Part shown: piece by piece, positions 5,754 to 64,000 of the stretch
Layout of the letters: each line of letters opens with the position of its first letter
Position numbering within the stretch: the first letter of the stretch is position 1
From: Trileptium ribeirensis
Taxonomy: Eukaryota > Nematoda > Enoplea > Enoplida > Thoracostomopsidae
Reading direction: 5' to 3'
Assembly (NCBI GenBank): GCA_030248225.1
Contig: JASANE010007325.1
Coordinates: 1 to 64,000, forward strand
Length of the DNA stretch: 64,000 nucleotides
Made by a program: the position numbers and the translations under genes
The notes under the pieces: generated by a model
The model's input: only the letters and a program-made list of their open reading frames with translations
Databases searched by the model: none
Told to the model about the DNA's origin: nothing

Positions 5754-6620
5754 TGAAACAGAGCGAGCGAAGTGTTCACTGTGGGCGCTATGGGTAAACA
5801 TTTCTTTTGTCTGTCGCTGTCATTCATAACTCATTTTCAGATGCACGGATTTCGACAATTTTTTGAACGATAGCACAAATGATGACGACGGGCCCTTTAG
5901 TTGAACGCGAACAGCTACGACCCCATCTTTTGGGTCAAAATTGCAAAAAAAAAACAGGTTAAGGGTTCTTTGGCAAATCTGGCCACACTGTGCCTGTGTT
6001 TTTTCAACCTTTTTCTCGCGACACAGGCTTCGCATCGAAAAACGCTCGAATCAGACCATGGAGATTTATATAAAACTTTGGTGACCATTATTTTATGGGA
6101 CCATTCCGTGGGCCCGAATATGGTTCGTCGGCCTTTTACCAGAAATAGCGATTTTTCAAATTTCGCCGTGTTATTGCTTGTTTTAATCTTGCACTGGGTG
6201 CCTGTTAAGTTGTCCAGCACGCTGAGTACGATGGGTTTGCTATATAGAGTCCTGCTTGTCTATATTATACCGTTTCATGGTGTTTCAAGACTATCAGGGA
6301 CGACGAACTGGATACAAAAATAGTCTTGCATAGAATGATTGTAATATCCAGAGTCAATCTTGCATATTTATATGCTTTTTCATGGGTTATCAACGGGGTT
6401 AGGGTTAATGATTCCGGTTTCTATAACATAGTTCGTCTACAGTTGTTTGGTTATGTATTGCGTACAGCTCATCAAAACTTATCAATATAATTTCCCGGTA
6501 GGCTGAATACGATGGTTTGGTCATCTAGAGACCAACACAAATACTTTATGTGTTGTCGTGTGTTTTCGATGGGTTTAGGATCGACGAGGTGTGACCGCTA
6601 AATTATACTTGATTTATTAA
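5754..6620 (+). repeat. Family B repeat, copy 1 (3'-truncated)
   Basis: It starts GAAACAGAGCGAGCGAAGTG and continues with TGTCATTCATAACTCATTTT, a GATGACGACGGGCC block, CCCCATCTTTTGGGTCAAAA, and AAGGGTTCTTTGGCAAATCTGG (5961-5982). The same order is seen at 16580-21765, about 42796-43982 and 60332-61710. The copy appears to stop near 6620, short of the terminal block found in the other copies. It is non-coding; the 140-codon frame at 5901-6323 lies inside it and is not conserved as an open frame in the other copies. Confidence 0.7.
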
Positions 6621-13414: not shown

Positions 13415-15288
13415 CCTACCATGGTTCACGAGTATAGACACTCCAACGAAAATTTTAGGACACAGATGAGTCGAGATTTGAGGCTCAAAAACATAGATAT
13501 ATCCAATTTTGTACCACATATTACAATTTGTAACCACGCCGAGCATGGATGGTGTTATCAAACGGCGTTCTCCGCCCCAAAATATCGATGGTTAATAGAC
13601 GTCATATCCGCTTTTTTTCACCTTTTCCCTCATCGAAGACGGCAACAACATCACTATTCATTTTGTACTACTGTCGTACTTGACACGCTTAGTCAGTCAC
13701 ACTAGGTAACTAGGTACCGATGAACTGGCTATCAGATAAGTGTGAGACAGAGCTCTCAGCATCAAGAAGATTATCGCCGACACTAAATGCCGTTTAAAAT
13801 TTCATTGCTCGATTAAATGCGCGTATACCGTACTCTCGTGTATGTTAAAAATCATTCTCGAGAGTATCCAACCGTGACCCAATAACAAAGTACGGTGAAA
13901 CATTATTACTAGAAAAGTTTTAAGACAATTTCGTATGCATATGGGATATACTATCGTAACCTGTTTATTGATTTCGAAAAGAAAGTTACTTATACCTATT
14001 GTGATCGATTGTACATACGTATGAGTAAGTAAAACGTCGCGTCGCACCGAGTTGAAGTCGTATCTCGAAAACACCAAACCGTTATATACCCATGCACCTG
14101 TGTATTCTTTGAAATAATTTAGGATGAACCGAATCGAGTCAGTTCTTCCCCACCATATCCCCATAGTGTACGCCTGGTTCCATGCTCAGCCTTGTTTTAG
14201 TTTAGCTGTCTTTTAGCTTACCTGAACCGAATTGTTACCTGGAGTACCCTAATTCCGCGCGAGCCGTTAGTCAGCTGATAACTGAGCACCGTTTCAACGT
14301 TCTCTTCCGTCCCGTACCGAGTAAGGCAAGCGCAGCTGTCGTTGTTTAAGAAACGTTATTCACGCCGCGATCTATACAGTTTTGAGAATCCCATATGAAG
14401 AAGGCGAAGACTCCGACATATGTATGATGATTTCCCCGACCCAACAGTTATGGCGTACCCGTAATCTCGTAAACCTGACGAGAGAACAGTTTATTATAAT
14501 TGTTCGTATTATCTTATTGTTGTACCACTGATGCTATCTCTCATAATGTGTTGATATACTATTTTGGTTTACCAACAAACATTAAAACCAAAACCCATGG
14601 TATTATGTTTTGATGACCCATGTACCGATACGAGTTGAAGGGGTTTGACATCGATCGACGACCCGCATTCACGCTTGACAGGCAGAAATTTCAAGTCTTA
14701 GTGTGGGTGGCCGATTTACTGAGTGTAAATGATAACGACTCATGCGATCGCCGAAATTTCCTGGCAGACTTTCGTTGAACGAATTTTCTTCAAATAAACA
14801 CGCAATCCGACGTTAAACGTCTAGGGATTTGTCGGACCCTAGTTGGGGCCACTGGCCGAATGAAGGGAATAGTTCAGGTAAAGTACAGAATCAGTAAAAT
14901 CAACAATCAAAACAAATAGATGATAGGGAATAGTGGCATGGTGACGGAGCCAACCTCCCTAGGTTCTTCAAAGGTAGTACCACTTAGGCTACGTGCGCAA
15001 CCCGTCCGGCAGGATCAGAATACATCTTGTGCTCCTGTAGCTTGCTAAGCTACGTGATTTATTAGGCCCGCCCCGAAAAGAAAAATTGAACCCATTAAGT
15101 CCTACCGCGAGGTTACACTAGCCAGGGTCGTATGGGCACTGCGTTTTGGAAGTGCGCAGTGCAGCAGCGTCACTTCGATATTACACATATATCGATCTTT
15201 GGTAGCGAGGTTTCTTCTGCACTTCATGTCTATGGTATACTTATTTTCATGTCGTTGTTATTGCTTCTTACGAGTATCTATGTTTTAG

Positions 15289-15362
15289 TCTCGTTTTGCC
15301 CCTCTTCCAACGGATTTAACGGGAACTACATTTAGTCGAATTTTTGGTACTACCGCATCAAG
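15289..15362 (+). CDS. POLA1: DNA polymerase alpha catalytic subunit, exon d
   Basis: Twenty-four codons plus two bases, acceptor ATGTTTTAG and donor GTACGT. It encodes SRFAPLPTDLTGTTFSRIFG and then TTAS plus AG, completed to Ser by the next exon. The family stretch is [26 protein letters not shown], a residue-for-residue fit without gaps. It is too short for an ORF scan and sits immediately after the large repeat copy A. Phase enters at 0 and leaves at 2. Confidence 0.93.
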
Positions 15363-16808
15363 GTACGTTATATTGCGCGTGTAGTACAAATAGCTTATTT
15401 CCTTTAAACGAACCTTCCGATGGACACTGGTTTTTTGAACTGTAATCGTAACTTAAAAGCGAATATACATTTTAACGAATGCTATCATGTACGTGATGTT
15501 TAGAAATATAAGGGAACAGATGCTGAATTTTATTACCTAAATAGTTGTAATTTACGCTAAAACTGAAACTCCCCGATAATTAACTATGCACGTTTATTTC
15601 ACTGCATAGGCGTGCGTTACGCATATCGCATATAAAACTGTATTTATTGGCCACATTTTTGCTTTAACCAGTTAACTGGTCTTGTTATCCTTGATAACAT
15701 TGTCATTCATTCCGTTTTTAGGTCCATGATTTTATCAGTCTGTCGAACTGCAGCGATACATGTGTGTTAGTATACTTCCACTGCGACGTACTAGTTTTAT
15801 TTAATATGCGAAATGGTTATGTATTAACAATGGTATGAAATATTGCTGATTAAAGATACCTATAATCTTCCATGTTAACCTGCAATTGTTGTGGTAAACT
15901 TTGCGGGTAAATACAATCACAGAACGAGTTAACTCACCGCACATGCACACGCACGCAGTTGTGTTTAAACGGACACAAGCGTTTGTAAACTCTAACTCAC
16001 GCAAATTCGTGTCAACGCTTTCGGGTGTTTTGGGCGTTTGTGTATGTACTGTTAATTCATTCCGTGATTGTAGTTATCTGTCAGGTTTTGTAATATTGAA
16101 ATGTGCGCAATCCGTATTACTAACTTTATCCATAAAGCGTGAATGCCTTATTGACCTATTCGACGGTCTAGATTATTTTTAATCGACAACGAAAAATACA
16201 ATGCTGACATCAGAAATTGCTTAAAGCAGCTTCGCCGTCCAAATAAATAAATTTGGGGCGCTAGACACACACCCAGTACTGAGATGTTTTGTAGCCATAG
16301 AAGGTCTTTCTTGCTACCTCAGTTTGGCCCCTCTTCCCAACTGAACCCATATTTGTAGGACACCGCTGGAACCGGTTACCTAAAATTTTTAGGACTAGGC
16401 ATAGTTACCATAAACTGCAGTGATACGGTAATGATTCTTCTGGCTTTTCTAAACTGCCTCCAAAGTACTTGGGGGAGCTGAACTGGGGATTCGAGGTCGA
16501 AGTGGTGGAAACCCGGCTTAAATGGTGGTCTAAAAACGCGGAATAGCATAAAACTGATTTACAATATAGATACAATAATTGAAACGGAGCGAGTGGCGTT
16601 TCCATTGAGAGCTTAGGGGGAATTGTCAAACGTTCTTTTTTGGTATGTCGCTGTCATCCATAACGTTTTTTCGGTTTGGCGGATTTCGATAAATTATTCA
16701 TTTATTTGATAGCAAAGGTGATGACGGTGTGTCCTTTAGTTGAACGCGAACAGCTCTGACCCCATCTTTCGGGACAGTATGGCAAAAACAGGTTTTAAGG
16801 GTTATTTC

Positions 16809-17110
16809 GTCGTTGATCTGAGCAAAGGCCCTTACACACATTATGTTGAAAAAATCAAATTTTAAGAGTAATGTTGTGTAATGCAGAGCTCGTTGATTTT
16901 AGCAAACGCCCGTAGCATTAGTATCTATATTTAACGAGATAACTGGCGTTGTGCAAAAGCCTCAGATCGATACATTATAAAGCAAAAGCCTTTACTAGCA
17001 AGGGCCTATGCAACTATACTCAAACTTTTTAATGTTTTCAGTTTGAGCTAAAGCCCTTATATTAACGGCTTCTGCTACAGTTTGTGTGTGTAATGGTAGC
17101 AAATGCCAGC
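16809..17110 (+). repeat. Left subterminal repeat cluster of the transposon
   Basis: After the terminal GAGCAAAGGCCCTTA (about 16821) variants recur at about 16898 (AGCAAACGCCCGTA), 16953 (GCAAAAGCCT), 16980 (AGCAAAAGCCTTTA), 17001 (AGCAAGGGCCTA), 17044 (GAGCTAAAGCCCTTA) and 17097 (AGCAAATGCC). The copy at 16898 is preceded by CGTTGATTTT, echoing the terminal CGTTGATCTG. Such clusters are transposase-binding sites in hAT and other TIR elements; here that role is inferred. Confidence 0.7.
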
Positions 17111-17762
17111 GGTCAAAGTATTAGTAGTTCACTGAGATACTTTTCATTTTATTTCCAGGTGCCGGTCTTCTCTCAATACATGACCCCGATAGTAAATGTT
17201 CGTCGTTACTTTTTCGGCTGTTCGACAATTACAATACTACCAATAATATAATTATATAAATAACATTAACTGTAAAACTATTATGTAGATTATTACTATA
17301 CTTAATAGTTCTTAAAACACAGAGTCACGGCATTTCTACATTGAATTAAATACTCTGACAGGATTCGCCGCCTGCTAACTGTTCCAGAACCTTTGTAAAA
17401 ATCTTGAGGTTGATGGCATGTTGTAAATGTCATTCTGATCATAATTAAACATACATTACATTATACATTAAACCACACGCATACGAGAAGTCCTAACGTG
17501 TTGTAATGCTAACTCACGTGCACGTTTGAATCATGCTCACTTATTTATGATTATTCTGATAGGCGATTTCGTATAAATTGCAACTAGTATAGCATAGCGA
17601 CAAGTATGAATTGTTCTCAGTCAATTAAAAGAGATACCATTCAATATTTTATTCCCACCATTTCTCTTTATTGAGCCGTTACTCTGTGTTGCGACACGTT
17701 TTTCAGAATTAGATAACTAGTCGACATAATAAATAACTTATAAATAGCTAACGAAAATAAAA

Positions 17763-18644
17763 ATGTCTTGTCATTTCCTAGCCGATAACATAAAAACATT
17801 CGCCATCGATACCTATGTATGGGTGTATTCAAAAAATGGATGGTGGCCTTCTGTCGTATCGGATGGCCGTGATTTTCGTTACAAGGACTGGAGAAAGACC
17901 ACCGACGAATTATTTGTTTATTTTTTCGGCACTAACAAATACGGATACGTCTCTCTCGAGAACATTCGTCACTTTTCTGATAGTTCGTTCCGACCGTACC
18001 CACCGCCGCCAAGGTGCTCGCGCGCAGCAAAACGACAAATTGCTGAAGCTATTGCTCAGTGTTTACTTTACCTTAACGAGCGCGACATGTACGACGAACT
18101 AGCCAACCTGGATACGCAAATGACGCATACGCCCACTATCCACAAAGCTATTCTGACAGCTTTGGAGATTATTCGACCTCGAATTTGGAAACATTTTCAT
18201 AGTATGTCCCAAGAAGTCATACAAGAAATGTTGTCAGAATTAGAAACAAACCTTGCTTTAGATAGACTGTTCAGCGAAAGCGATCTAAATTTAACCCTAG
18301 ATCTATCAACTGACGGCGAACAGTCAGCATTGGCACTGATCGCAGCATGCTACGACAGTGAATCCAATGATAGTGATACCATAGTGCGTGCTCTTTCGAA
18401 CCAGTCTTCCGAGTTGTCTGAGCCATCACCGCTTCCAGGAACTTCAGCACAATTTAAAGATTTCGAAATAGTAGAGCGCAGGTTTGGTATTCCGCCGGCG
18501 AAATCTATCATCGAACGTGAACAACGTAAGCGGCGCAAGGTGGCGGAAACTGATAACTATTCAACATCGAACTCCGATAATGACAGTCGTAATAACGATC
18601 CTGATGTCAATCCACTTGAATTATCTTTCAATAGCACAGACTGA
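17763..18644 (+). CDS. PWWP-like domain protein of the transposon
   Basis: This is a 293-codon open frame from ATG (context AAAATAAAAATGTC) to TGA. Residues 16-75 have the PWWP pattern: D-T-Y-V-W-V-Y, then N-G-W-W-P-S-V-V at 25-32 (Gly in place of the first Pro), then F-V-Y-F-F-G at 51-56 and G-Y-V-S-L-E-N-I at 61-68. PWWP domains bind DNA and methylated histone H3 tails, mainly H3K36. The rest is a helical stretch (about 85-170), then a Ser/Asp/Glu-rich segment with a basic cluster Q-R-K-R-R-K near 260. It lies inside the transposon, directly before and in the same direction as the transposase, one frame apart. A single-base change near 18600-18650 could have split an original fused protein, since both sides of the junction are acidic and compatible. 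It could also be a separate first protein or be joined by a small intron. Confidence 0.75.
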   Translation: MSCHFLADNIKTFAIDTYVWVYSKNGWWPSVVSDGRDFRYKDWRKTTDELFVYFFGTNKYGYVSLENIRHFSDSSFRPYPPPPRCSRAAKRQIAEAIAQCLLYLNERDMYDELANLDTQMTHTPTIHKAILTALEIIRPRIWKHFHSMSQEVIQEMLSELETNLALDRLFSESDLNLTLDLSTDGEQSALALIAACYDSESNDSDTIVRALSNQSSELSEPSPLPGTSAQFKDFEIVERRFGIPPAKSIIEREQRKRRKVAETDNYSTSNSDNDSRNNDPDVNPLELSFNSTD

Positions 18645-20556
18645 GGATGCCGCCGTCGGAGAAGTTTTGGATAATGATGTGCCCGTAGTATCACAGATCG
18701 CCGATCTACCAGTACCGTCCGTGGAACGTAGCCACAATTCACCTGATGAAATAGTTCGTGAAGTCGTTGAAGAGATAGCAACAGTTGGCACACACTGTAA
18801 AAAGGTGCGTCAGTGGCAGGACAATAAACTCAAACGCTCATTAGGAATGGAATACGTAAGCCGTAGCAGTAAATTGGTGGCTGCAAGAACAGTAAAAACA
18901 GCCACTTGTCACAACTGCCCGGAAATAAATGGCATTCGGCAAAAATGTGCGGACCGATTTAGCGCCGAACAGCGGTCGCAGCTATTAAACGATTTTTATC
19001 GTCTAGCGGACAAAAGAGTGTTTGTCTGCGGAAATGTTATCATATCAAATCAACCATCTAGTGTTTCCGGGAGGAGACCGTACCAATATACATTGCCAAA
19101 TGGTCCTGACGGTTCCAAAGTCCCCGTGTGTAAGGATTTTTTCATGAAAACACTTGATATTGGTGAAAAATACATTCGTGGTTGCGTGAAAGCCCGCTCT
19201 GCTTCTGGCATGCCGACAGCTCGACATTCCATGGCGCGACCTGTTAGACACGCACTTTCCGCAGAGCAGCGTAATTTGGCTCAGGAACATATTGACAGTT
19301 TTCCACGTGTTCCTAGTCATTACTGCAGAAAGTCAAGCTCGCGTGTGTATCTGGAGTCATGCGTTTGAAGCAAACGCCATATGCACTGGCTTTATACTGA
19401 ATTTTGCCAATTGCGATCTGTAAAACCACTTTCATACTCATCTTATCGTCGGATCGTTTCCGAAAATCGCATTTCTGTGTACCGTCCTAAGAAAGATAGG
19501 TGCAAAACCTGTGTTAAATTTGAAAATTTGTCGCCACAGCAGCGTACAGAGAATCAAGCTACTTATGATTACCACATGAAAATGAAGGACGACGCCCGCG
19601 TATCCAAAGCAACCGATAAAGCATTTGCTAAAGGGTCAAATGAATTTAGAGCAATTACTTTCGACTTGCAATCCGTATGCTATGTACCGTGCGGCAATGT
19701 ATCATCTTTGTACTATTCGCGAAAGCTGTCAACTATAACATGACAATTTGCGATTTGGCGACAAACAGGGGTTACTGCTTTTACTGGATTGAAACTGATG
19801 GAAATCGCGGTGCCATGTATTCTCAAGTACTTGGATATAATACCTGACGAAGTGAATGAGGTCTCAATGTATTCCGACAGTTGCGGTGGTCAGAACCGTA
19901 ACCAGTATATACTTGCCGCATGCATCTATGCTGCGTCTAGTGAACGACTGGGGGTGAAATTGGTGCGGCACACCTTCCTAGAACCCGGACACACACAAAT
20001 GGAATGTGATGCCATGCATTCATCCATAGAATGTGCTGCGAAAAATGTATCGATTTATGTACCTAACGACTGGCTGAACGTTATCAAACTATCACGGCCA
20101 AGCCATTCATTTTCAGTTGTTCAACAGCTGCGATTTGATGATTTTCAAGACGTCAAATCTCTTTCTACCCGTATATTTGGAAACAGGCCGAATATTCCTT
20201 TTGGAAAAATCAGACGATTTAAAGTGAGTGCTGCAAAGCCTGATTGCATTGAATATAGTACTGACTATACGTCTGAGATGATGGTTTATGCCATTCCAAA
20301 ACCGCGCACGAGATCCACAGTTGAGCTGCAGCTGGCGCCTGCATATGGCCAAACGCTTCCTATTACCACGAACAAGAAAGCCGATTTGATGAAACTCTGC
20401 CGTGACTATATTATTCCAGACATATACTGGCCGTTTTATGAGAAACTACCTACTTCAGAAGAATTTCAGCAACCAGTAACAAACAACTTAGAAGACAGTG
20501 CTAATGACGATTCTGAGGGCAGTGAAATAAGCTCGGACGATGAACAAAGCTTGTGA
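18640..20556 (+). pseudogene. DDE-type transposase (DUF7869-like), broken in several places
   Basis: Three segments in the same frame: to TGA 19366-19368, then 19369-19743, then 19789-20556. The order is a basic region with a Cys cluster (C-H-N-C...Q-K-C at about 18907-18948), Y-x-Y-x-L-P-N-G and V-C-K-D-F-F-M-K-T-L-D-I-G-E-K-Y-I, F-P-R-V-P-S-H-Y-C, P-K-K-D-R-C-K-T-C, the first acidic position F-D-L-Q (Asp at 19663), D-S-C-G-G-Q-N-R-N (Asp at 19876) and F-L-E-P-G-H-T-Q-M-E-C-D (Glu at 20002). These fit a DDE/RNase H-like core. Lesions are an in-frame TGA at 19366, a lost base near 19733 and a compensating shift near 19800; bases 19735-19800 still encode matching residues in another frame. The C-terminus is acidic. 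The family assignment is from memory. Confidence 0.8.
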
Positions 20557-20639
20557 CTAGAAAAGGTTGGTGCTATTGTGGAAATTAGGGTAGTTAAATG
20601 TAATATAAATAAGCTGAAGCTGTGGCCACTTGCACATGG

Positions 20640-20903
20640 ATGTGTAACATGATGATCTGAACAAAGGCCTTTAGTGAGATTAATTACAGATAATGACACT
20701 GTAGTAGCTGACATGGTGACGTAAGCAGACATTACACAGTGAGATATCACTAAAGTCCCACGGCATGCTAACTGCGTTTAAATCTTTCTGAAATGTTCTT
20801 TCAGAAACTCAAAACATGTCGATTAATTCATGGCAAAAAATCAAAAGCCTTTATCTCAAAATCAACTTTCGAGACTAAAGGCCTTTGCTCAGATCAACGA
20901 CGA
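20640..20903 (-). repeat. Right subterminal and terminal repeat of the transposon
   Basis: The terminal inverted repeat ends at 20903. Just inside lie an inverted AAAGCCTTTATCTC (about 20845) and a direct-orientation GATCTGAACAAAGGCCTTTA at about 20655, so the subterminal motif is present on both strands at this end. The sequence between 20557 and 20640 is non-coding 3' sequence of the transposase. Confidence 0.65.
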
Positions 20904-21150
20904 TTTGCCAAATCTGGCTATACGGCTACTACTGTTTCGCAGCCCGTATCTGGCGACATTCACATCGAAAAACGGATGCCATCACTCCTCTTATCGAGAT
21001 CTATAACTTTGATGATCGCTGATTTTTTCTTGGACCACTCCGTAGGCCACTGTGCGGCCCAATATGGTTCATCGACCCTTAGCCAGAAATAGCGATTTTC
21101 AAGTTTCGGCATGTTATTGCGTGTTTTACCTTTCAGTTATTGCCTGTTAA

Positions 21151-21228
21151 GTTAGCAAGCACGCTGAATAACATGGTTTTGCTGTCTAAGTTAGCAATCA
21201 CGCTGAATAACATGGTTTTGCTGTCTAG
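21151..21228 (+). repeat. 39-bp tandem duplication
   Basis: Two adjacent units starting GTTAGCAAGCACGCTGAATA and GTTAGCAATCACGCTGAATA differ at one or two bases. They lie inside family B copy 2. Other family B copies carry one such unit. Confidence 0.85.
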
Positions 21229-22356
21229 AGCCTAACTTCACTATATAAGTAATATACCTTCTCGTAAAGGTTCAAGAGCTTTAAGGTCGACCGATTTGTT
21301 TGTTTGGTTGGGATTTGCGTACAGGACATCCAGAATGCTTTATATATAGGTCTTTCTGAGCGTTGAATACGGTTATCTAGTGTCCAGCGTGCATATTTAG
21401 TGTCTTTTAATGGGTTTTGGGTTTTTAGTGCCTTTTCAGATGTCAATGTGTTTAGGGTCTTTGAACCCCTTGCCAAAAGGAATATAATCTTTCTTCAGTT
21501 GTTTGGTCAGGTATTGCGCGCAGGGCATCAAGAATACATTATTATAGGTTTTTCGGCACTCTGAATATGAACGTTTAGTTATCTATGGACTAGTATGGAT
21601 AGTTCGTGCATGTTCGTTTGTTTTCGATGGGGTTAGGGTCGACCAAGCTTTAGTGTTTTAATGGGTTCAGAATCACAATGTAGTACATATCAAACACAGA
21701 GCCTGTTATTACAAAATGACCACGTGATGAAACCACACACTCTCTGTTACAACTTCGCTTGTAAGATACTAGTATAGTGACGCACTGTCGACGGAATATA
21801 GTTATACGGTTTTAGCCCAACAGAGCGAAAATTTAGAGATTTTTGTAAGTCTCATATGGAAAAACTGGTCTATTTGTTGCCTCGCAAAAATTGCTTATTT
21901 CTTAGTCATGCAAAAAAACCTAGGGAGCTGAACTGGGTGGAAGCCGAAAAATACTTATAGGCACCGTGGGGACGCCCAAATACATTGGGCATTTGTCGCA
22001 CCCTCCGTGGAAAAGCCATTTATTACCGGGACTATGCTAAATTTGTAAGCAATCTCTGCTTTGTTAGAGATGAAAACCGCATGCACCTACATGGTGTTAC
22101 GATAATATTTTCAAAAAGCAAACGATTAGATGTTTAAGTATTATGCGTACAGATCATTAAATTTTGTTTGGTGCCATATTATTATGTTTAATTGAAATAT
22201 CTATTTTACTATTTTGGGTAACTCTCTAAACAGTACAAACGGATGGCCTAGCTTTTTTGTCGATCTAGATATAATATAGGGGCTTACAGACCTGCTTGGC
22301 TTCAGTTTCGGTTTATCCGTAATTTTATAGTACTGCAATACTGCATAATGTTTTAG

Positions 22357-22421
22357 CCTCGAAACATTTCTTTTGGAGCGTAGATTGAGGGGACCATCGT
22401 GGATCGAAGTACGTAGCCCAG
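22357..22421 (+). CDS. POLA1: DNA polymerase alpha catalytic subunit, exon e
   Basis: A 65-base exon: one base completing Ser, 21 codons, and one base left over. Acceptor ATGTTTTAG, donor GTATTG. It encodes LETFLLERRLRGPSWIEVRS and P. The family block is [21 protein letters not shown], identical in length. It enters in phase 2 from exon d and leaves in phase 1 into exon f. A short exon easily missed by ORF scanning. Confidence 0.93.
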
Positions 22422-22606
22422 GTATTGTGTTTATATGTAATAACTAAAAATTTGACATTACAAATATATATATTTATGCCTGATGCACAGGGAGTAGCAA
22501 TATTAACTTTTTTGTCTTTCTATATACATACACATAAAATGTACACATAGCTGTATACAAACGGGCAAAACTAATATATTATTTGATAAAAAACTAATAT
22601 ATTTGC

Positions 22607-29754: not shown

Positions 29755-31095
29755 ACTCTGCGTCGCAGCTCCTTAATCTTAGCTTGGTGAATACTAACTT
29801 TAAGCACAAGCAGCGACATCGACAAGCATAAAAATCTCCCGGTGGCGGCTTCTTTCAGTTGGACCATGTCCTAATCACTTCGCAACTACAAATAATATTC
29901 ATCGATTGTCGCACATTTTGGGGCAGCTGGCTGCACACAGGTCATGACATGGTCACTGGCAAATTTAGGGACAAACTCATCGTACTAAGCATTCGTCGAA
30001 TTTTGCTGGTCTGCGACATCCACAGATCGCGAAGAATTCAACGCTGCCACTAACTGATTTGGGCAGCTAACAGAAACGACATCTGTTGAAGAATGTTTTA
30101 ATTATTCTTTGAAGACTAACGTCACGGCGGCTGTGGACGAGGTATTTGAAAAAAAGTGCACAAAAAGAGGCAGTAGGTCAGCGACCTAACCGTCGCTGTA
30201 TCCGAACAACACAAACCCACAATAGGGTTGGGTCCCTAGATCGGTTCTCCGGCAGCTCTTTGGCGAAAACATTTAAGAGGATAAAAACGGTGTGACGACG
30301 ACATTGTGTTTCATTTGTCGAAAGCGGCTGCCATACATGACGTGCTTAAAGTATTAAGTCTGACCCAATCGCAGCGCAACACTCAAGTTATAATAAGAGA
30401 TGGTGACAGAATCTCAGTGGCTACAGCTTCTGCACAGCTGAACCGATAGCGCCATCATTTCGATGCGCTCTTAAATCGCAACGCTCCGGATCAGCCAATT
30501 TCCGGTGTCTATCTGAAGTTTTCGGGCTTTTACGACTGCAATTGTACAACCCCGTGTGAAGACGAAGTCGTTCAAGCCTTAAGGTGCTTTCGAAACATAC
30601 GAGCAGCAGGCGCTGACGGAATCCCACCGGAGTACTACAAAGCAGGCAATGCTGCGCTAGCGAAGCAGCTTCATTGATTAACTGCTAAAATTTGGCTTAT
30701 CGTTGGCGTTATCCTGTTTTACAAAAAGGGAGATAAATCAGATTGTGCCAACTACAGGGGCATCTCTCTGCTCAATATTGCATTCAAAGTGGTAGAAGCC
30801 GTGATTGCTAGTTCCTTCAAGTAACGCCATGCGCAGTTCATGCGAGACGAGCAATGTGGATTCCGTCCCGACCGTGGCACGCCGGATCAGGTTTTGATCT
30901 TGCGACTGGTACTGCTGGCTACTCAAAACCTCGGAAATTATACCCGGGGGCCCAGGCAATCGACTGCGATAGCATTCGTGGACTTTAAGGCAGTGTTCGA
31001 CTCTGTTCACAGACTGTCGCTGAATTAAATCCTGGATGCGGTCGGGGTGTCGGCTAAATTGGTACGAATGATCAGAGCTTCGTATAACATAGCAG
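29755..31095 (+). pseudogene. Non-LTR retrotransposon remnant (endonuclease tail and reverse transcriptase)
   Basis: Fragments in several frames read as a LINE. They are the end of the endonuclease (F-Q-L-D-H-V-L-I-T-S-Q, then D-C-R-T-F-W-G-S and D-M-V-T-G-K-F, 29845-29975), an R-D-G-D...L-N-R...F-D-A-L-L-N-R linker (30400-30490), A-A-G-A-D-G-I-P-P-E-Y-Y-K-A (30600-30645), F-Y-K-K-G-D-K-S-D and N-Y-R-G-I-S-L-L-N-I (30718-30785), Q-C-G-F-R-P-D-R-G-T-P-D-Q (30849-30890), then A-F-V-D-F-K-A-V-F-D-S-V-H-R (30974-31014). The downstream catalytic Y/F-A-D-D box is absent. Multiple stops and shifts make it dead. It looks like the RTE/CR1-type LINEs common in invertebrates; the clade is not fixed. Confidence 0.85.
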
Positions 31096-31710
31096 AGATT
31101 GTGTGCTGCAGTAGTGAAAGCTTTTAAATTCCGTCTATGTGTCCGTGATCATCCATAACTTGAAAATGACTAAACTGAATTTCATGATCTTGGGCTCATT
31201 CGAAGCGGCATAGTCTATTTACCGTCAATATTTCCGAATTTTTTTATTTGAGGTCTGATTCCGGGGTCAGAGGGCATAATTAGGGTTTTTTTTACACTAT
31301 TTCACACCATCTTAGTACTCTTCGCGGAAGCATAGTTATTTTTATCTTAACTTTCTAATTTTTTTCTCTGGTTGGTGTTATTTTATGGGGGTTTTCGGGC
31401 ATGGGAAACTCGTTGCCGGTGTTGGTTTTGCGCTGCGACCCATGGGTACGGGAGTATGGCCTCCCATGGTTCCTCGAGACGAAATTACTAATTTTATTGT
31501 GACGTCCTGGGAGGCTGATAGCTTGCATTGGGGGTTTTCGGGCATGGGACACTTATTGTCGGTGTTAGCTTTGTTCTAACTTGTGTGGTATTGTGTGATA
31601 TTCACAAATATATCGACGCATGCTATTGACAGCTTTTGACTGTGAAAGCAATACGCGTAGATGTACCTGTGCTTCACTACGCTGTACAATCTCGATAGGG
31701 TTACTAGTTA
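31096..31710 (+). repeat. Family C repeat, copy 2
   Basis: It starts AGATTGTGTGCTGCAGTAGT, the same start as copy 3 near 41315, and ends TCTCGATAGGGTTACTAGTT. It begins exactly where LINE similarity stops, so it either truncated the LINE or inserted at its end. Confidence 0.75.
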
Positions 31711-33417: not shown

Positions 33418-33630
33418 TATATATCTTAGGAAATACAGATGGAAATTAACATATACCTTGAATGGTTATGGAGATTTGGCGTTTTCCTGAATTTTTGTTT
33501 TCATGGCTTAGTCAACAACCAATTCTGACCCAACTCTGCAATATAACTAATGGCAATAACAACACGTTATGTGCCACTATATAGAGCGCCAAATTGCCGC
33601 ACATAATGAGACCAACAACAGCTATAATAT

Positions 33631-33746
33631 AGCTCAACCGGTTGCGGAGATATGGCAGTTTTCCTGTATTTTGGGTGTCATGGGTCCATTCAAAACTTGA
33701 CCCAAAATACAAGAAAACTGCTATATCTCCGCAACCGATCGAGTTG
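33631..33746. repeat. Long hairpin, 46-bp arms and 23-base loop
   Basis: The left arm 33631-33676 and right arm 33700-33746 are inverse complements with about five mismatches. Key text is TTGCGGAGATATGGCAGTTT on the left and AAAACTGCTATATCTCCGCA on the right. Confidence 0.9.
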
Positions 33747-34213
33747 TATAGCCGTTATTGATCTCGTTTTACACAGGAATTTGACCCTCTATATAGTGGC
33801 AAATGTTCTGCCATTTTCATTAGCTATATTTCAGGGTTGAGTCAGAATGGGACAGGAAAACGGCAATATCTCTGTAACTACTCCAATTATATGTTTTTTC
33901 CGTTTCCTGTGTTTTGGTTTTCATGGTCCATTCAAACGCCCATTTTGACCCAACCCTGCAACGTAACTATTATGTGATAACGATATGCAGATAGATATAG
34001 GATGAATTACTTTACAAAATAAGACCAACAACAGCAATACAGCTTAAGAAATTACGAATATATTGAGGCTTTTGTGTATTATTGTTAGCATAGGCCTATC
34101 AAATGGATCATATCCCAAAATTTTATGCAGTCTTATATAGGCTTTGTTATTGTAAACTTTTCTATTATTTTCCCATTATGCTACTTGCTCTCTAATGCTG
34201 TATTAATTTGTAG

Positions 34214-42795: not shown

Positions 42796-43982
42796 ACAAA
42801 ACGAACGAACCTCGCAGTGTTTTCACTGAGGACGCTTGGTGGAAAACTCGTGAAAACATCTTTTTTATTTGTTTGTGTCATTCATAACTCAGGACGGATT
42901 GCGCCAAATTTTTTGTTCGATAGCAAAAGTGACGACGACGTGCCTTTTTTGTTTGAGCGCGAACAGCTTTGAACCAATCTTCCGGGTCAAAATGGCAAAA
43001 AACTGTTTTTAAGGGTTCTTTGCCAAATCTGGCAATACAGGTACCAGCATGCGTAACCCATATCTCACGACACAAGCTTCACATCAAAAATATCGAGATA
43101 TACAAATTTGCTGACTATGATATTTTGTGGGACCACTCCCTGAGTCGCAGTGGGCCCAATGGATCGACATATTGCCAGAAATAGTGATTTTTCAGATTTC
43201 GCCGTATTATTGCTTGTTTTTACCTCACAATGAGTGCTTATTAGGTTATCAAGCACGCCGGATACGGTGCTATTCTAGTACCTAGAGTCCAACTTGCCTA
43301 TATTATACTTTTTTATGGGGTTGCAAGGGTTTCACGGTGATGAACCCTGTTTTCAAAATGTGCGTTTTCATTTGTCTGATAATGTTTTGCGTTTAGGGCA
43401 TCACGAATGGTCTATATATAGCTATTTCTTAATTTGGTTATCTAAGACTTTTCATGGGTTTAGGATCAATGAACCCTATTCCCAGATTATGGTTTATAAC
43501 TGAGTTTTCTTTATATGTCCTTAAATATTGACGGCGATTAAGCATTAGGCTTACCGTATTCTAAACTACCCGATAGTGTCAAAACCACATCCTTTTCGAC
43601 AAAGTTGGAGATTAAGGTCCTTTGACTCTCTGCGGAGACATGTTTTTTAAGTGTCTTGAGTGTGTTAAGGGTCAGTGAACCCGACTTTCAGAATATAGTC
43701 TGTCTTCAGTTGATTGGATACGTACAGATCGTCAAGAATTGTTTATATAGGTTTTGCGGTATGCTGAATACGATGGTTTGGTTATCTAGAGACCATAATC
43801 TAGAGATCTAAATAGTTGATCCTTTGTCAGCTGTTTTCGACAGGTTTAGGGTCGATGAGATTTTAGGATTTTCAATGGATTCACTGTTCTGACTTTTTAT
43901 GGTGGTATGTACGTCAAACACAGGCTGTTACAGGTGATTAAACAAAATAACTTAAAATAAAACCACGCTCGCTCCGTTCCAC
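42796..43982 (+). repeat. Family B repeat, copy 3
   Basis: It has the same order of blocks as copy 2, with AAGGGTTCTTTGCCAAATCTGG intact at 43012-43033, which is the empty site of the PWWP transposon. It ends ACCACGCTCGCTCCGTTCCA. The 3' two thirds are irregular repeats of CTGAATACGATGGTTTGGTT and TTTAGGGTCGATGA text. Confidence 0.8.
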
Positions 43983-44929: not shown

Positions 44930-46030
44930 CGAAATTTTTGAATTCGAGTGGAACGAGAATTTAAAATTATGGCTTTGGGGGGGGGTTGAGGAGGTCCTGT
45001 CTGTGTGTGTGTCCGTTGCACCTGGATCTCGATAACGGTTGGGCGGATTTTGATGCAAGATAGCTCATTCGAACCGCAGTGGTCCATTTTTGAATTTTTT
45101 GCCGTGGGAAAAGTTATGGGGCAAAATGACGTCATTTTGGCCCATTTTTCGGGCACGCCCTCCAGTTTGCGACTTTTCTCAATAAGTACACGAGGTATCC
45201 GCAAACTAATAGGCCTATTCCATGTAGCTTTACCAGGGCTTTCCAGTGATATATAACAAGTTTTTCAACTACTTCCCAATCTGGAGTCTATAAGCTTATA
45301 GTTGTCGCCAAATTTCATATTTGGTGTAAAGTCGTGGGGAAATGCACCTAAATGTGTGCTTATTGTTGGTTTTAGTGTCAGATATGTGGTTTTCTGGGCC
45401 AGTCGGATAAACATGCAATTGGCACTAGGTGACAATCCGGGTTATTATGCCGAAGCATTGTGTGTAGGCTGGCCATGATGATTGCCCATTACACCTCCCA
45501 TCATCTTATCCGCCTAGACCACAGTCTAGTACCTGTTTAACGCATAGGTACTGCGAAGCAATTGTGGCTGAGTCCCTTGCCCAAGATTGGATTCGAATTC
45601 CTGGCTTCACGATTATGAAGCAGGCGCTCTAACCACTCGACCACACCACCACTTTTGGGCCAACAAGCTGTTTGCGAGTGTCAAAAATGTTGTGTGGCAA
45701 ATATTTTTCACACTTCTGCTTCATACTTGGTATGAAAAATGAGATTTTTCTCAAGTCTAGTTTGAATTCTTTAACGTTCTTTTCACGGTCAATTTAGGGT
45801 TTTATTGAATTTTTAAATTGTTAGTTGATTGTTTTTGTACTCGTTGTACGATCTTTTGTCTACTGCATACGTTGGCTATCAAATGAGGCTTGCGTAGCTA
45901 TGACTCATCACTCACGGTTTATATAATGCTGCACCGGCGTCCTGTGTGTAGGCTTTGTTTGTTTGTGCTTTCTACAACAGACTTCGGGGGATTGTTCTCA
46001 CCACTCGAATTCTGGCTCGCAAGCGAGCTT
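44930..46030 (+). repeat. Element G, copy 1 (contains a SINE)
   Basis: The inverse of 57905-58735 over its full length. Shared text includes GGATCTCGATAACGGTTGGG, CATTCGAACCG, GGGGCAAAATGACGTCATTT, CAACTACTTCCCAAT and TTGAATTCTTTAACGTTCTT. The ends GAATTCGAGTGG...AGAA face each other inverted, suggesting a TIR element. No coding capacity was seen. Confidence 0.8.
45401..45652 (-). mobile_element. tRNA-derived SINE
   Basis: On the minus strand the 5' end reads GGTGTGGTCGAGTGGTTAGA, a polymerase III box A context. It is followed by GCGCCTGCTTCATAATCGTG and GGAATTCGAATCC (box B), a degenerate tRNA with a CAT-like anticodon region. A non-tRNA body of about 170 bases follows. The insertion is bounded by TTCTGGGCC on the left (45392-45400) and TTTTGGGCC on the right (45653-45661). 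The paralogous element at 57905-58735 lacks it, giving the empty site GGTTTTCTGGGCCAACAAAC in the same orientation. There is no poly-A tail; the 3' end is TTTATCCGACT. Confidence 0.9.
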
Positions 46031-46262
46031 CACTGGTAATCTTGAATTCCGGTTCCGGTATACATTTTTGCCTTTTGCCGGAACCGTAACCGGAACACGA
46101 TTTTCGCCGGAACCGGAATTCCGGTTACTCCCTGCAATATATGTCATGTCATATCTATGTTGGCGACCTTTCTGAATTGTCAGGTCTAAATATCTAAATG
46201 CTCCTGCAGCCCTGTTGTAACGATTTTACACAGCTTACATTTTGTGCATCTTTTTCGTTCAG

Positions 46263-57690: not shown

Positions 57691-57904
57691 TAATAGCCTT
57701 TTTACTGTTTGATTATAACTTTCTAGTACGTTTAGCAAGCCTTATCGAATATACAAGATCGAATGAGTCTCGAGCGAACTTCGAACAACGATCGTTTCTT
57801 TTAGGCACTCTAACAGTTTCGTATGTAGCGAAACCGGTAATATTGCAGATTACCACTGTTTTTGACAATAAATGACGAATTTTCGCTAAAATTAAAAATT
57901 ACTA

Positions 57905-58735
57905 GTGAAGCTAGCTTGCGAGCCAGAATTCGAGTGGTGAGTACAATCGCCCGAAGTCTGTTGTAGAAAGCACACACAAACAAAGTGTACACACAGTACG
58001 CAGGAGCAGCATTATATAAACCGTGAGTGATGAGTCATAGTTACGCCCGCTTCTTTTGATAGCCAACGTATGCAGTAGACAAAACATCATACACCGAGTA
58101 CAGAAACAATGAACTAACAATTTAATAATTCAATAAAACCCAAAATTGACCGTGAAAAGAACGTTAAAGAATTCAAACCGACACTTGAGAAAAATCTCAT
58201 TTTTCATACCAAGTATGAAGCAGAAGCGTGAAAAATATTTGCCACACAATATTTTTGACACTCGCAATCAGTTTGTTGGCCCAGAAAACCAAAAAAACAC
58301 ACATTTAGGTGCATTTCCCACGACTTATCACCAAATATGAAATTTGGCGCCAACTACAAGCTTATAGACTCCACATTGGGAAGTAGTTGAAAAACTTGTT
58401 GTATATCATTGGAAAGATCTGGTAAAGCTACATGGAATAGGACTATTAGTTTTCGGATACCTGGTTTACTTATTGAGAAAAGCCGCAAAAACTAGAGGGG
58501 TTACACGAAAAATGGGCCAAAATGACGTCATTTTGCCCCATAACTTTTTCCACGGGAAAAAATTAAAAAATCGGGCTCTGTCACTACACCTAAATCGACC
58601 CTACGGTTCGAATGAGCTATCTTGCATCAAAATCCGCCCAACCGTTATCGAGATCCAGGTGCGAGAGACACACACATTGAACATTCTCGTTCCACTCGCT
58701 CGCGATTCAATTATAGCTGCGCGTTTTTAAAATGC
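57905..58735 (-). repeat. Element G, copy 2 (inverted, without SINE)
   Basis: The inverse complement of 44930-46030 without the SINE. It serves as the pre-insertion reference for that SINE. Ends are AAGCTAGCTTGCGAGCCAGA and CTCGTTCCACTCGCTCGCG. Confidence 0.82.

Positions 58736-60131: not shown

Positions 60132-64000
<3,869 letters not shown>

Follow-up and report, generated by a model that had tools for sequence, protein, structure and literature searches.

A DNA transposon of the nematode Trileptium ribeirensis that combines a PWWP domain with a predicted DUF7869 transposase

Our results support a model whereby a family of DNA transposons in the nematode Trileptium ribeirensis carries a PWWP domain, ordinarily a reader of chromatin marks, and a DUF7869-type protein, the predicted transposase, in one mobile unit, with intact members encoding both in a single polypeptide. 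One copy, a DNA transposon of ~4.1 kb with inverted ends, is placed at 16808-20902 of the window, a stretch of 64,000 nucleotides (positions 1 to 64,000 of contig JASANE010007325.1, assembly GCA_030248225.1). The association between the two domains is not accidental, because four copies belonging to three families (L009, its twin L010, L011 and L015; 922, 923, 925 and 1001 residues) encode both domains in a single intact frame, as an earlier reading of the window's letters alone (the original prediction) had expected of intact copies. We consider it moderately likely that the element is a cut-and-paste DUF7869 DDE/D transposon whose fused PWWP domain tethers the enzyme to chromatin during target capture, and the lineage is probably Sola2-like. 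The element may thus carry its own guide to its landing sites, and a transposase equipped to bind nucleosomes through a module of its own would be of interest to genome engineers. How DNA transposons choose their targets becomes directly testable here, as the genome offers intact frames and also near-identical copies inserted at different places.

In the window copy, the PWWP domain lies in ORF1 (open reading frame 1), whose stop-to-stop frame of 298 codons is the longest of the window. Both domains named in the original prediction were recovered by profile: PWWP (PF00855) scores 31.7 bits in ORF1 (E=2.3e-7; Pfam cut-off 25.6), and DUF7869 (PF25273) scores 27.6 bits over residues 40-119 of the last transposase piece (E=2.6e-6; cut-off 26). 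Database relatives align with the transposase body over 18814-20469, with E down to 2e-85. Since the transposase frame changes near 18630, 19728 and 19815, has a stop codon at 19366-19368 and has a gap in a conserved block near 19820, this copy is, judged from its sequence, broken and dead. ORF1 itself matched nothing at E<=0.001 among 1246 database candidates, all 0.55-1.75 times its length, a range outside which fused proteins fall.

A search of the genome (687 Mb in 20,229 contigs) with DUF7869 as query returned at least 143 match rows, a figure that includes the window and in which a few contigs appear twice. We fetched 26 loci (L009-L034), picked for score and long open frames; L014 and L029, whose contigs end first, were left out of the PWWP count, leaving 24 testable loci. 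The original prediction had held that related copies lacking the PWWP region would make the association accidental; a PWWP match lies upstream on the transposase strand in 21 of the 24, starting 0.2-2.2 kb before the transposase match. In each of the ten units with defined ends and duplication (described below), it is also enclosed by the ends, in keeping with the single mobile unit that had been proposed. The PWWP profile was built from the window and nine of the 21 loci; four more are near-copies of profile members (L010, L021, L023, L024), and eight are neither in the profile nor near-copies (L018, L026, L027, L028, L030, L031, L033, L034), the match in L027 being weak (1.2e-3). Independently of this profile, eight of ten other copies pass the Pfam cut-off for PWWP, and L011 (25.4 bits) and L020 (23.2 bits) are just short; among the fused frames, one domain is therefore under its cut-off in L011, as is DUF7869 in L015 (E=0.014). 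The profile gave no match on the opposite strand or elsewhere in the fetched loci, and the constant place and strand in 21 of 24 leads us to reject a chance neighbour or a host gene. Recent activity is likely because L009 and L010 are 99.9% identical over 4.27 kb with both frames intact, L010 being flanked by an ATAT duplication. The PWWP domains of near-identical copies differ by 4 to 6 changes per pair, too few for a selection test.

An old origin of the fusion in this lineage is suggested by the transposase tree, where the copies from this genome fall into three separated groups (of 16, 6 and 2 rows) and every group has PWWP members. The tree has 57 rows and was made by a quick method, and the fork that joins the three groups to the database relatives is poorly resolved; the fusion may have arisen once or more than once. 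Fragmentary relatives (P0001-P0005) were kept out of this tree and of a preceding one; the 57-row tree was also made without the near-copies P0031 and P0018 and without L023 and L028 (pieces <230 residues) and L022 (<280 residues).

The ends place the PWWP domain inside the element. In the window copy, they are 28 nucleotides long and 96% complementary with one mismatch (16807-16834 and 20876-20903), as first described, and a 21-base end motif occurs on average 0 times in shuffled windows. With up to five mismatches on either strand, the end-like motif has eight matches at six distinct sites, both ends included, inside the 4.1-kb element and two in the other 60 kb of the window; the left subterminal repeats are likely transposase binding sites. 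Both flanks read ATTT, and the window copy alone would fit a duplication of 2 or 4 bp. The TT noted earlier on both flanks is present as part of ATTT, but TT as the target duplication is ruled out by the exact 4-bp ANNT duplications of other copies, which also set the boundaries at 16808-20902. We called a unit defined if, among the end pairs listed (for the window and 20 loci, the three best of each), it had end repeats matching at >=20/24 positions and an exact 4-bp duplication. Among the matches listed, the window and 20 loci contain eight such units; of six additional loci, L034 contributes one and, by reading of the listed rows, L031 another, for a total of 10 of 27. A weak 17/24 end pair of L018 was left out, and ten base-shuffled loci gave no end pair with exact duplication. 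All ten defined units start with CG, and their duplications (ATTT, ATAT, AATT, AGTT, ACAT, AATT, ATTT, AAGT, ATAT, ATAT) are all ANNT, seven of the ten being AWWT. One, at 2709-5326 of L028, is a 2.6-kb unit with similar ends and the AAGT duplication that retains PWWP and part of DUF7869, and is probably an internally shortened copy.

Support for the enzymatic identity of the DUF7869 protein comes from 40 database relatives (P0001-P0040); residue counts are over P0006-P0040 (n=35), four rows of which have organism names (Brenthis ino, Coilia grayii and, twice, Diadema antillarum), and searches of viral and prokaryotic collections found no relatives. The predicted model of P0006 adopts an RNase H fold; its acids lie on strand 1, following strand 4 and within the final helix. 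This model supports assigning the family to the RNase H-type fold that DDE/D transposases share, and with it a predicted transposase function for a Pfam family of unknown function. D391 and D467 are kept in 35/35 relatives, D509 and E516 in 34/35 and E507 in 32/35. The conserved blocks in which the original prediction placed D, D and E are therefore present, but the E of GHTQME (E507), being less conserved than D509, two places on, or E516, the later E (..IE), is less likely than either to be the third acid. After the second D comes a CDSMH-type sequence, a candidate C/DxxH motif (D 34/35, H 31/35, with F or Q instead of H in 4/35); two papers describe C/DxxH for the Dada/hAT/Kolobok/P/MuDR group (PMC3706591, PMC10045372). 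Identity to Mos1 and SETMAR mariner transposases and to retroviral integrases is 8-14% over the aligned parts, and a profile built from the relatives found nothing below E=0.7 among PDB sequences. Mariner duplicates TA.

The original prediction could name no described superfamily with this layout, which is doubtful given the resemblance of the ANNT duplications to those printed for Sola2 as ATAT, AAAT and ATTT (PMC3627910). The same source gives the general form AWWT and a transposase of 888 residues in D. fasciculatum; 4-bp AT-rich duplications (ATTT, ATAT), inverted ends and one large transposase of similar size are common to Sola2 and the elements described here (PMC3627910). Because all duplications are ANNT, close to the printed AWWT, we consider a Sola2-like lineage likelier than a new superfamily, a likeness drawn from duplications and transposase size. 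That the elements form a new superfamily sharing only duplication length with Sola2 is rather unlikely in view of the printed Sola2 sites; in its favour, three of the ten duplications (AGTT, ACAT, AAGT) depart from AWWT, Pfam does not name DUF7869 (PF25273) as a transposase, and the Sola2 likeness comes from description. The Sola2 triad is reportedly DDD; D509 is kept in 34/35 relatives, but so is E516. The open-licence literature, our scope here (Repbase lay outside it), yielded no PWWP for Sola2, in which the present elements differ from it, no fusion of PWWP with a DDE/D DNA transposase and no naming of DUF7869.

The identity of the PWWP domain is supported by a profile of ten copies, which recovers solved PWWP proteins including DNMT3B, NSD2, NSD3, HDGF, LEDGF (at 1.3e-7) and BRPF1. 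Three positions, which we take to form the methyl-lysine cage, are the residue before P, the residue two before G of FFG, and Y of the canonical xGY; the first two are aromatic in 10/10 aligned copies. The core and these two aromatics are kept in copies whose PWWP is 13-32% identical to that of the window.

Building on the anatomy, fusion and duplications observed in these copies, we propose that intact members encode one protein composed of an N-terminal PWWP domain, a linker, a cysteine-rich region and an RNase H transposase. The transposase would bind the inverted ends and subterminal repeats, excise the element and insert it at ANNT sites, where 4-bp duplications would result; homology points to such cut-and-paste chemistry. 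Meanwhile PWWP would tether the transposase complex to nucleosomes or DNA during target capture, and chromatin tethering is what we infer to be its most likely role. By analogy, the PWWP of LEDGF/p75 (PSIP1) and the RNase H-fold integrase of human immunodeficiency virus (HIV) act together, LEDGF being a host protein that binds integrase; here, in contrast, reader and enzyme are fused and would act within one polypeptide. Among retroelements, integrating enzymes with a fused chromatin reader are known: chromovirus integrases share the reader-integrase fusion, theirs being a C-terminal chromodomain in a long terminal repeat (LTR) retrotransposon. We put forward tentatively that the PWWP domain steers integration to H3K36-methylated active gene bodies, as a single-polypeptide counterpart of LEDGF plus retroviral integrase that is kept across deeply diverged families of this one animal genome.

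Several points weigh against the model of a fused, chromatin-tethered transposase. Among the 40 database relatives, a set that includes five fragments, no PWWP match was better than E=0.23, and the transposase therefore does without the domain elsewhere. PWWP was also not found in L013, L016 and L032 (3/24 testable loci); L013 is the closest copy, 94% identical over the transposase part, and keeps the rest of ORF1 with the PWWP domain gone. The absences in database relatives and in L013 favour the view that the window copy picked up PWWP by chance as a piece of a host gene or has it as a coincidental neighbour, which is nevertheless very improbable since PWWP recurs in the same place and strand in three separated tree groups and the four intact fused frames contradict chance capture. 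Seventeen of the 27 units, including L009, L011 and L019, have no clear ends with exact duplication among the matches listed (L009 and L011 have ends and no exact duplication), and the loci had been picked by score and long frames. On the structural side, Foldseek with the P0006-based model gave low template-modelling (TM) scores (0.15 for IstA), with unrelated TDP2 chains next at E 0.004, and an alignment-free fold of the L009 fused protein gave no usable model (predicted local distance difference test score, pLDDT, 32.8). The xGY cage position is aromatic in 1/10 aligned copies (L025 only); in L009, L019, L020 and L022 an aromatic residue stands a few positions earlier. A single intronic copy proves nothing on steering into active genes. 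It is possible, if doubtful, that PWWP has no part in choosing integration sites and instead serves general DNA binding, retention in the nucleus or on chromatin, or evasion of silencing, in line with the non-aromatic xGY position in 9/10 copies, the acidic and RKRR-like stretches that follow the domain and the other N-terminal modules of the family; retention of the core and two cage aromatics at such low identity speaks against it.

In P0006-P0040 the alignable transposase body comes with PWWP in 0/35 and with an OTU protease match in 4/35; because the latter stands in place of PWWP, the transposase N-terminus appears to accept different accessory domains. The N-terminal OTU cysteine protease domain is found in P0016 and P0027 and was assigned by eye in P0022 and P0032; OTU-bearing relatives group in the tree with P0033, whose sequence starts after the OTU region. 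Separately, residues 1-60 of P0011 and P0029 share an N-terminal segment, VEVSYxxKxWKARII, that has a Tudor-type barrel look by eye; this is without Pfam support, and the P0029 segment against PDB gave nothing below E=0.6.

Table 1. Features of the element and its surroundings in the window
Feature	Position	Strand	Basis
Weak POLA1 match upstream of the insertion, human residues 452-482	15265..15360	+	E=0.021
Older repeat hosting the insertion	16636..21186	.	within-window comparison
Left target-site duplication, ATTT	16804..16807	.	sequence; 4-bp ANNT rule from other copies
Left terminal inverted repeat, CGTCGTTGATCTGAGCAAAGGCCCTTA	16808..16834	+	end comparison, other copies
Left subterminal end-motif repeats, AGCAAARGCC-like, sites 16897, 16977, 17042	16890..17060	+	motif search
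ORF1: PWWP domain (residues 18-84), then linker; N-terminal part of fused protein	17763..18644	+	frame list, Pfam
Broken transposase frame, pieces 18475-19368, 19369-19743, 19650-19847, 19744-20556	18631..20556	+	frames, Pfam, alignment
Right subterminal repeat, TGATCTGAACAAAGGCCTTTAGT	20653..20680	+	motif search
Right terminal inverted repeat	20876..20902	-	end comparison, other copies
Right target-site duplication, ATTT	20903..20906	.	sequence
POLA1 exon downstream of the insertion, human residues 483-507	22355..22429	+	E=1.6e-4; gene identity from 62938-63177

The window copy is inserted in an older repeat, three further copies of which (5802-6241, 42895-43264 and 60330-60811; 67-71% identical) are without the insert, which agrees with the empty site in paralogous repeats reported earlier. 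A frame at 62938-63177 matches the catalytic subunit of DNA polymerase alpha (E=2.4e-11). Further exons were mapped with a human POLA1 sequence; the matches are roughly colinear along the + strand, and two bracket the element. The upstream exon is probably the 3' half of its match, because the 5' part contains a stop. With POLA1 matches on both sides, the upstream one weak, the copy is very probably intronic in a POLA1-like gene in the sense direction, which bears out the earlier placement in an intron of a housekeeping gene. The POLA1 introns also hold fragments of a reverse-transcriptase-like non-LTR retrotransposon at 30421-31148 (by eye, AAGADGIPPEYYKAG). Elsewhere in the window, an inverted repeat pair at 45004-46048 and 57890-58676, 85-92% identical, is apparently a younger mobile element, and 33519-33851 is a long palindrome of 333 bp with a 74% match to its own reverse complement.
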